This document shows positions 32,891 through 35,706 of a DNA stretch of 64,000 bases, in pieces. The notes below the pieces were generated by a model. The model saw nothing but the letters and a program-made list of their open reading frames with translations, searched no databases and was not told the DNA's origin. This DNA comes from Caldilineaceae bacterium (GTDB lineage Bacteria; Chloroflexota; Anaerolineae; Caldilineales; Caldilineaceae). Positions within the stretch are counted from its first letter, which is position 1, and each line of letters begins with the position of its first letter. The position numbers and the translations under genes are program-made. The stretch spans positions 248,001 to 312,000 of the forward strand of contig JAJEBF010000014.1 of NCBI GenBank assembly GCA_022824025.1, read 5' to 3'.

Positions 32891-33316
32891 GTGCGCTTAA
32901 CCGACGCCAAGATCGACCACGTCGGCATCGTTGTCCACGACCTGGACGACGCGCTCGCAACTTACCGTGACGCCCTCGGATTCCGCCTCCTCGAGCGCCT
33001 CAGCGCCCCCGACCACGGCGTCCAAATCGCCTTTCTCGACGCCGGATCCGGCACGATTGAGCTGCTCTCCCCTACGGATTGCGATAGCGGTACCGCTCGC
33101 TTCCTTGCGCGGCGGGGCGAAGGCGCCCACCATATCTGCTTTGCCGTGCCCGACATCAGGCGCGCCCTGGAGGAGCTGCACAGCCAGGGCCTCCGCCTGA
33201 TCGACGAAACGCCCCGCCGCGGCGTCCACGGGCTCATCGCCTTCGTTCATCCCCAAGCCGCACACGGTGTGATGATTGAACTGCTGCAAAAGGATGGGGC
33301 ACACCGCCGAGAATGA
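32891..33316 (+). CDS. mce: Methylmalonyl-CoA epimerase
   Basis: The 141-residue glyoxalase-fold protein begins at GTG, with AGGAG 6 nt upstream. Landmarks are 'KIDHVGIVVHDLDDALATYRDALGF' (metal His in DHVGI), 'IELLSPTDCDSGTARFLARRGEGAHHICFAV' and the final 'VMIELLQKDG' glutamate. It interconverts the (2S) and (2R) forms of methylmalonyl-CoA, feeding the mutase encoded upstream. Its stop overlaps the next gene by 4 nt (ATGA). Confidence 0.93.
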   Translation: MRLTDAKIDHVGIVVHDLDDALATYRDALGFRLLERLSAPDHGVQIAFLDAGSGTIELLSPTDCDSGTARFLARRGEGAHHICFAVPDIRRALEELHSQGLRLIDETPRRGVHGLIAFVHPQAAHGVMIELLQKDGAHRRE

Positions 33317-34125
33317 CTCGACCCCCTTTCGGCCAACCACCCAAGGTCGAGACGCAACTTTCCCACTGGAATGACGTTATCGACAGTCGCTTGGCCGACA
33401 ACCGCCCCGATGACGCCGTCCCCCTGATTCGCGTCATCCTCAAATCCCTGCCCCGCCACCTCTCCACATACTTCCGCTTTCTCCAGGTCATCTGGCTGAC
33501 ACGCCGCTGGCAGGAAGGCCAGGACTGGGCCCTGCGCCTCCTGAACGCAGACCCCGGCAGCGAGCTCGCCTGGGCTGTGCTCGCAAGGGGGGCCGAATCC
33601 GAGGGCAACCTGACGCTGGCCCAGCGCTATTGGACTCTCGCGCTTGAAAACGCCCCCTACAACCGTCCCATTCGGCAAGGCCTTTCCCGCACGCTCCTGC
33701 GCCAGAAGCGGCCGCTTATGCTCACGCGGCCCGCGCTGGCCACCCTCTATCGCATGGGCGGACGCTGGCAGAAGGCCATCCGGGTGTACGAGGAACTGAC
33801 CGGCGAGGAGCCGGGCCGCCTGGACTTTCAGTGCAACCTGCTCGAAGCGGCCTGGCATAGTGGACAAACCGATTCGGCTCTCCAACAAGCGCGCTTCCTG
33901 GTCTCTCTGAATCCCAGCCTGCTGCTGGGCTGGGTCGTATCCAACCGGATCGGTGATGCTGACGATCGCGCCCTGGCAAAAGCCCCTCTCGTTGCCATGG
34001 ACCCCGACGGTGAGTACGCCATCACTCGCTTCGCCGACAGAAATGCCTCGGTTCAACCGTCCAGCATCTCCGTCACGCCAGAGGACGCGCAACAACTTCG
34101 CGCCCTCACAGATTCCACGAAATGA
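33313..34125 (+). CDS. TPR-like helical-repeat protein
   Basis: The 270-residue product overlaps the epimerase stop by 4 nt. Residues about 20-220 form TPR-like helix pairs ('AWAVLARGAESEGNLTLAQRYWTLALENAP', 'ATLYRMGGRWQKAIRVYEELTGEEP'). No signal peptide or enzyme motif is present. Translational coupling to mce might be chance or point to a scaffold role; no function can be assigned. It ends the operon, since the next 560 nt carry no gene. Confidence 0.75.
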   Translation: MTRPPFGQPPKVETQLSHWNDVIDSRLADNRPDDAVPLIRVILKSLPRHLSTYFRFLQVIWLTRRWQEGQDWALRLLNADPGSELAWAVLARGAESEGNLTLAQRYWTLALENAPYNRPIRQGLSRTLLRQKRPLMLTRPALATLYRMGGRWQKAIRVYEELTGEEPGRLDFQCNLLEAAWHSGQTDSALQQARFLVSLNPSLLLGWVVSNRIGDADDRALAKAPLVAMDPDGEYAITRFADRNASVQPSSISVTPEDAQQLRALTDSTK

Positions 34126-34655: not shown

Positions 34656-34689
34656 TACAAATTATTAGGTTGCGCTAAAGGAGCGAATT

Positions 34690-35706
34690 GTGCGGAGTCA
34701 GCAACAGCTGAAAGAAGCGCTGCTGGATGCCTTGCAGAAGGATGAACAGATTGCTGTGGTTCAGTCCCCCGCCGTCGGCAAGACAGAAAAGCAGAACGAA
34801 CTGCTCATGTTCATAAAGCCTGAGATTCTGGCGGTTGACGATCGGACCTGCCTCGGCAACGCCATCGACCTGATCTGGGACAAGCTCGCAGAATTCGAGG
34901 CTTGCGTTGCAGGCACAGTCCTGGTCGGCGGCCCTGCACTCGAAAGCAAGGAAAGCATGGACCGGCACTATGGCGCCATCAACGTCCTGTCCAAAACGGC
35001 CTCGGCTGACCTGAGCGCGACCGACCGCGGCAGCGTCTATGATGCCCTTGCCGTCCCCCCCGCCGACTACCCTCTTTTCGGCGGACACGAATTTCTGAAT
35101 GCCCATCCTTCCTTCTCGCCCGCGAGCCTGGACAACCTCTGGTTCACCAAAAAAGCCCACAAGATCCGGTCCGGCTTCTACGTGCAGGCCTATGAGGACA
35201 GTGGCGAAAAGTTCATTCTCGTTAACGGCTTCCATCCCGCCCAGTTGGCCCATTTCACAGAGCCTTCGCACCGCATCGCCCTCATGCTCATCCACTCCGA
35301 CACGCCCTGGGCTGACCTTCGCGACCAAATGATCGGTGATACCTTCCCCGAACGGGCCGCGCCCAAGTCAATTCGAGGCGAACTGCACGCCAACCCGCCC
35401 CGCTACGGCTTCGAAGAAGTGACGATCGCCAACAACGGCGTCCATCTCTCTGCGGGCCCCTTTGAGGCAATGTTTGAAATATCCAACTTCTTCGGCAGCC
35501 TTCTGGGCGCCGATATCCATGCCGCGCCGCCGCGCATTGTCGCATCCATGGTTGCAGCCGGGATTTCCCAGAGCGATGCATATAATTCTCTGGAGAACCC
35601 CGAAGTCGATGACCCCGCCGGCGAAACCACCGATCTGTTCGACGCCACCGAACACATGGACACTGAACCGGCTGTTGCTCTCTATCAATCCAACCTAGCG
35701 GAATGA
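34690..35706 (+). CDS. Enlarged nucleoside-diphosphate-kinase-like protein
   Basis: A 338-residue product from a GTG with AAAGGAG upstream. Residues 36-100 match the N-terminal half of NDK: 'ELLMFIKPEIL' (K43, like the KPD motif) and 'MDRHYG' (Y94). Residues about 195-270 match the C-terminal half: 'SIRGEL' (R229) and N249-G-V-H252-L-S-A, with H252 at the phosphohistidine position. About 95 residues with no match to NDK lie between the halves, and the last 60 are acidic. NDKs are about 140 residues long and transfer phosphate between nucleotides. Active-site residues remain, so it may be an active or repurposed kinase. Confidence 0.6.
   Translation: MRSQQQLKEALLDALQKDEQIAVVQSPAVGKTEKQNELLMFIKPEILAVDDRTCLGNAIDLIWDKLAEFEACVAGTVLVGGPALESKESMDRHYGAINVLSKTASADLSATDRGSVYDALAVPPADYPLFGGHEFLNAHPSFSPASLDNLWFTKKAHKIRSGFYVQAYEDSGEKFILVNGFHPAQLAHFTEPSHRIALMLIHSDTPWADLRDQMIGDTFPERAAPKSIRGELHANPPRYGFEEVTIANNGVHLSAGPFEAMFEISNFFGSLLGADIHAAPPRIVASMVAAGISQSDAYNSLENPEVDDPAGETTDLFDATEHMDTEPAVALYQSNLAE

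Follow-up and report, generated by a model that had tools for sequence, protein, structure and literature searches.

An insert-bearing relative of nucleoside diphosphate kinase in the place of ordinary ndk in a genus of Caldilineaceae

Nucleoside diphosphate kinase (NDK) is the near-universal enzyme making nucleoside triphosphates. The stretch of Caldilineaceae DNA analyzed here (64,000 nucleotides, hereafter the window) carries a plus-strand gene at 34690..35706 (338 aa, GTG start, stop included) whose product holds the hallmark residues of NDK on both sides of a long unrelated segment. What is this protein, and what does it do for the cell? A sequence-only reading had held that it does not look like a housekeeping NDK and could be a regulatory or protein-histidine kinase. 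Our analysis favors another answer: the protein most likely belongs to an unrecognized insert-bearing NDK subfamily that displaced ordinary ndk in place, and it is most likely the only NDP kinase of its genus.

The gene is preceded by an AAAGGAG ribosome-binding site (34677..34683, plus strand), kept across the genus with small variations. The protein is 72–92% identical to the products of 14 other Caldilineaceae MAG loci. Purifying selection acts on the reading frame (dN/dS about 0.1), and the insert, with dN/dS about 0.06–0.09, is constrained as strongly as the core.

The predicted NDK core and its insert

Sequence comparison by itself gives weak but consistent evidence of an NDK. The Pfam NDK model (PF00334) matches residues 200–269 only, with an E-value of 0.0022 and 18.3 bits; the insert and divergence hold this score below the Pfam gathering cut-off of 27 bits, which is a formal and practical database criterion rather than a biological one. 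NCBIfam NDK models give E-values of 0.003–0.2, and the best PDB sequence match is the Pyrobaculum NDK (1xqi, E 0.0034), with 4di6 also matched (E 0.41). The Pfam NDK model alone picks up the window-type gene in two other genomes, G004 and G096, and hhalign comparison of the family with ordinary NDKs of related genomes gives a probability of 96.8% and an E-value of 2.3e-10 over the second half of the protein.

Structure models were built from an alignment of 15 close relatives. The full-length AlphaFold2 model is of moderate confidence (mean pLDDT 66, pTM 0.61), and every one of its 50 best Foldseek matches in the PDB is an NDK. VIA-align superimposes it on M. tuberculosis NDK (6qa2) with Z 11.0 and an rmsd of 2.7 Å over 133 of 135 residues, spanning model residues 35–274 and skipping the insert; identity to ordinary NDK in the structural alignment is about 20–25%. 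The first half of the core (residues 36–102, 34795..34995, plus strand) is modelled as b1 36–42, a1 52–68, b2 72–80, aA 81–86 and a2 89–102. After the insert, the second half (residues 195–272, 35272..35505, plus strand) continues with b3 195–203, a3 207–215, the Kpn region 216–248, b4 251–253 and a4 257–272. The model thus has the elements that define the NDK fold: a ferredoxin-like a/b core, the aA-a2 hairpin and the Kpn loop. The sequence-only reading had named structure prediction as a check, with the lack of an NDK core as the outcome that would count against it, and the model did show such a core, interrupted by an additional module. The fold is settled by this prediction, and on it the window protein is a very divergent NDK.

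The active site points the same way. In M. tuberculosis numbering, the active-site and phosphate-binding residues of NDK are K10, Y50, R86, T92, R104, N114, H117, S119 and E128 (PMC7554756). At matching places and in the right order, the window protein has K43 (codon 34816–34818), Y94 (34966–34971 with H93), T218 (35341–35343), R229 (35374–35376), N249 (35434–35436), H252 (35443–35445), S254 (35449–35451) and E263 (35476–35478), all on the plus strand. The ordered hallmarks noticed from the letters (K43, Y94, R229, N249 and H252) are real, and all eight positions are invariant in the Chloroflexota relatives, which are 27–92% identical. The residue, profile and fold matches to NDK are more than chance. 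Two features of the active site deviate. The counterpart of R86 is R211 (the R before IGDT); in all Chloroflexota members this residue, R or K, lies at T-7 rather than T-6 before T218. The base-stacking residue of NDK is F58 in M. tuberculosis numbering (PMC7554756); at the same spacing, eight residues after the tyrosine, the window protein has K102 and no phenylalanine, and it is here that the insert starts. With R211 shifted and no phenylalanine at this place, the base clamp would therefore have to be built differently, and the insert may supply another base-stacking residue in place of F58.

The insert (residues 103–194, 34996..35271, plus strand) lies between the aA-a2 hairpin and strand b3, a region that the nucleotide clamp of NDK adjoins (PMC7554756). 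The core is interrupted, as had been claimed, by a segment somewhat smaller than the 95 residues first given: the part without NDK resemblance is about 90 residues long, and the distance from Y94 to R211 is 117 residues versus 36 in M. tuberculosis (Y50–R86), so that the excess is about 81. The motifs GGHEFL (131–136) and GFHPxQLxHFT (180–190) are conserved within it. Modelled alone, the insert reaches a mean pLDDT of 83.7 and a pTM of 0.77, with helices, a three-stranded meander and a return helix; in prediction, it is an independently folding unit. The insert sequences of four members, scanned against Pfam by themselves, gave no match. Nor did a clear relative emerge among PDB structures, with nothing at E ≤ 0.001 in a Foldseek search with the insert model. 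A relation to YoeB/ParE/HigB-type toxins was considered and is not claimed, as the best VIA Z of 2.7 is far below a meaningful level.

The N-terminal extension (residues 1–35, 34690..34794, plus strand) is poorly conserved outside the genus. The C-terminal segment (residues 273–338, 35506..35703, plus strand) is acidic, as the sequence-only reading had it, with 13 D/E and one K/R in 66 residues, though not a featureless tail: it ends in a conserved DLFDATEHMDT motif, still visible in a 25%-identical protein from Parageobacillus.

Ordinary NDK (PF00334; M. tuberculosis Ndk, 6qa2/1k44) shares with the window protein the core fold and strand order, the catalytic histidine with Asn at -3, Ser at +2 and Glu at +11, the phosphate-binding Lys, Tyr, Thr and Arg and, in Caldilineaceae, the chromosomal neighborhood. 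By contrast, the window protein has 338 residues versus ~140: it is ~81 residues longer from Y94 to the Kpn region and another ~10 within the Kpn loop, and it has the N-terminal extension and the conserved acidic C-terminal segment. The best PDB sequence matches, Pyrobaculum aerophilum NDK (1xqi) and Borrelia burgdorferi NDK (4di6), are also longer than ordinary NDK (chains of 195 and 190 residues); the matches cover the second half only and do not show the large insert to be common to them. The Pyrobaculum NDK is described as stabilized by extra subdomains (PMC7554756). Human NME6, a group II NME, is likewise a divergent NDK with all catalytic residues, but its Kpn insertion is 3 residues long and ordinary NMEs occur beside it, whereas in the window genus the divergent form stands alone. 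A search of open-access literature found no paper describing this insert-bearing NDK variant.

Other Anaerolineae NDKs carry different, smaller insertions (L039 1204–1791, L040 1459–2088 and L038 1465–2217), of about 30–40 residues after the active-site tyrosine or nearer the Kpn loop. The clamp region has therefore been extended more than once.

Distribution and chromosomal position

No PF00334 match at E 0.001 is found in the window genome, which is 99.46% complete; as a control, the same search yields a match in 12 of 14 genomes. All 17 genomes of the window genus have the window-type gene and none (0/17) has an ordinary ndk, so the separate normal gene that the sequence-only reading had suggested looking for is missing from the window genome and the 16 others alike. 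A weak Pfam match in one of them, G004, is the window-type gene itself. Among the other genomes in this search, 42 of 44 have an ordinary ndk and 0 of 44 the window type. The same exclusion recurs in a second genus of the class, g53 (window-type gene in 16/16 genomes, ordinary ndk in none), in G175 from another class, and in G096, while G423, a congener of G096, has an NDK that is detected by the Pfam model and is not of the window type. Taken together, carriers lack ordinary ndk in 35 of 35 genomes from four lineages, whereas ordinary ndk is present in 164 of 175 related non-carriers in the same searches and was not detected in 11. The Fisher p for this comparison, about 1e-30, is inflated by relatedness; with the four lineages as units, the chance of the complementary pattern is about 1.6e-5. 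Most of the genomes are probably MAGs. Since 11 of 175 comparison genomes are also without ordinary ndk, its absence alone is no proof of replacement.

Ten genomes with neither gene (G028, G037, G453, G459, G467, G485, G487, G284, G320 and G357) were re-searched with the family profile at E-values up to 1, which returned nothing. Some of the genomes with neither type are >94% complete; the explanation may lie in gaps in the drafts or in a further replacement of ndk. Weak family-profile matches in f36 genomes were examined in G218 and G379, and both are ordinary NDKs. In family f49, which contains the relatives of G096 in another Chloroflexota class, NDKs are divergent throughout (Pfam E about 1e-15 to 1e-25), some of them in open frames of >600 residues.

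The position of the gene adds to the distribution. In the window, a conserved plus-strand neighborhood comprises a methylmalonyl-CoA mutase (PF01642, 30270..32006), a thioesterase-superfamily gene (PF03061, 31928..32500), a VOC/glyoxalase-family gene that is methylmalonyl-CoA epimerase-like by context (32891..33316) and a TPR-repeat gene (33313..34125), followed by the window gene and, on the minus strand, rsfS (PF02410, 35765..36169). In sister genera, the TPR gene lies directly upstream and rsfS directly downstream of ordinary ndk. The sister-genus genome G022 (L078) has the identical gene order from mutase to rsfS, with an ordinary ndk in the slot of the window gene and flanking proteins 47–78% identical to those of the window. 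The window-type gene sits between the TPR gene and rsfS in the window, L001, L002, L010 and L013, versus ordinary ndk in G022; ordinary ndk likewise has the TPR gene upstream of it in G017, G025, G029, G031 and G033, and other sister genera keep parts of the mutase-to-rsfS order.

The same swap is seen with other neighbors in a different class. G175 and G109, which has an ordinary ndk, share the order TPR gene, Roadblock/LC7 gene, NDK, small gene, CAAX-type protease and AMP-binding enzyme, and their flanks are 43–80% identical. In g53, no neighbors are shared between the flanks of the window-type gene and the ordinary ndk loci of its family; in-place displacement is thus not shown there, and the evidence of replacement in g53 is the complementary distribution. 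Gene displacement in situ is a known mode of replacement (Omelchenko et al. 2003, cited in PMC1274311). With no ordinary ndk and a swap at the ndk locus in two classes, it looks like ordinary ndk was displaced in place in the window genus and in G175. Substitution at the ndk locus in separate lineages is the strongest evidence on function.

The wider family and its origin

Two distant relatives were found in plasmid records, both annotated as hypothetical: a Parageobacillus caldoxylosilyticus protein, 25% identical over 86%, and part of a 729-aa protein of Streptomyces sp. HUAS 15-9. Both keep the K, Y, R, N, H and S of the active site; T218 and E263 are changed in Parageobacillus and E263 in Streptomyces. 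They show that the insert-bearing subfamily is not confined to Chloroflexota. No relatives of the window protein were found in viral contigs and phage records.

The Parageobacillus gene lies in an operon-like run (plasmid NZ_CP040554.1, 9281–20189; L072 327–11235) with genes for a HAD hydrolase, myo-inositol-1-phosphate synthase, methionine adenosyltransferase and a dehydrogenase, as well as SurE and NUDIX genes and genes for HprK-like and APH-like proteins. The content of the run resembles that of a biosynthetic cluster of nucleoside or cyclitol type, carried on a conjugative plasmid. The Streptomyces protein (plasmid NZ_CP106799.1; L073 3462–15120) has one half that is NDK-like and another that may be a nucleotidyltransferase. 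Its gene lies next to adenosylhomocysteinase, aminotransferase and ABC transporter genes, and the region is possibly an uncharacterized biosynthetic cluster. Some branches of the subfamily may have other substrates.

We infer horizontal spread of the insert-bearing NDK. Its rival concerns origin only and would allow the same function: the native ndk of each lineage may have gained the insert and diverged where it stood. The location of the gene exactly at the ancestral ndk locus in two lineages would fit such a course. Yet the G175 protein has the same insert and is 50% identical to the window protein, while neighboring genera of both classes keep an ordinary ndk, and a single origin followed by transfer is a simpler account than repeated gain of the same insert. 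In the tree, G175, from another class, joins the window genus and g53 does not, with weak support (94/42). Divergence in place is accordingly an unlikely source of the pattern. The deep tree is unreliable owing to the long branches of G096, Parageobacillus and Streptomyces, and no direction of transfer is therefore claimed.

Proposed function and its alternatives

Most simply, the window gene is a housekeeping NDK in altered form. The earlier view against a housekeeping role is probably wrong, with the ancestral ndk locus occupied and no ordinary ndk in the genus, and to judge from the genome sequences the protein is probably the sole NDP kinase of the cell. We infer its NDP kinase catalysis, its substrate range and the role of the insert. 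By homology, the enzyme would act by a ping-pong mechanism in which H252 takes the gamma phosphate from an NTP and hands it on to an NDP; K43, Y94, T218 and R229 would hold the phosphates, and N249, S254 and E263 would keep H252 and the sugar in position. The module of ~80 residues is predicted to sit between the aA/a2 hairpin and b3, at what is one jaw of the base clamp in ordinary NDK, and most likely it rebuilds that jaw, oligomer contacts or both.

An alternative is that the protein is a phosphotransferase for an unusual nucleotide or sugar-nucleotide and not a general NDP kinase. The clustering of the Parageobacillus relative with inositol-phosphate synthase, SAM synthetase, SurE and NUDIX genes, that of the Streptomyces relative with adenosylhomocysteinase and an aminotransferase, and the location of the insert in the base-binding clamp would all agree with such a role. 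The plasmid proteins, however, are only ~25% identical and have further residues changed, whereas the Chloroflexota genes lie in a housekeeping neighborhood where they replace ndk, and we regard a specialized enzyme as improbable here.

The kinase role proposed from the sequence, in which H252 would pass its phosphate on to a protein docked at the insert, could draw on the size and conservation of the insert, which is predicted to have a fold of its own, on the conserved acidic C-terminal motif and on the protein-histidine kinase activity of some NDKs (PMC8597243). With such a role, the genus would have no NDP kinase left, as there is no other PF00334 match in its 17 genomes; the gene occupies the ndk locus, as does another copy in another class, and no partner kinase or response regulator is present among the conserved neighbors. 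With ordinary ndk absent and the gene at its locus, the regulatory idea is unsupported and very improbable. Equally hard to sustain is a weak or inactive NME6-like structural protein, with NTPs made via adenylate kinase, pyruvate kinase or polyphosphate kinase. In its favor, human NME6 lacks none of the catalytic residues, yet it was found to be a monomer without activity (PMC8597243); there is no phenylalanine at the usual base-stacking place, and 11 of 175 comparison genomes also have no detected ordinary ndk. Against it, the catalytic residues are invariant down to 27% identity, core and insert are both under purifying selection, and the same-locus substitution for ndk occurs in two classes.

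The insert-bearing NDK may, as a tentative extension of the reading we prefer, represent a mobile subfamily in which a module of unrecognized fold rebuilds the base clamp and perhaps the oligomer. Its members would then be general NDP kinases with new control or specificity that repeatedly displaced ndk, twice in place, with other branches in plasmid nucleoside-type operons.

The window-type NDK is not recognized by standard databases. Automatic annotation would score ndk as missing and could leave the window gene unnamed, a gap that is closed by naming the subfamily. The family is a natural experiment in how much rebuilding the nucleotide clamp of NDK tolerates; it is also a clean example, seen in separate lineages, of in-place displacement of a housekeeping gene.
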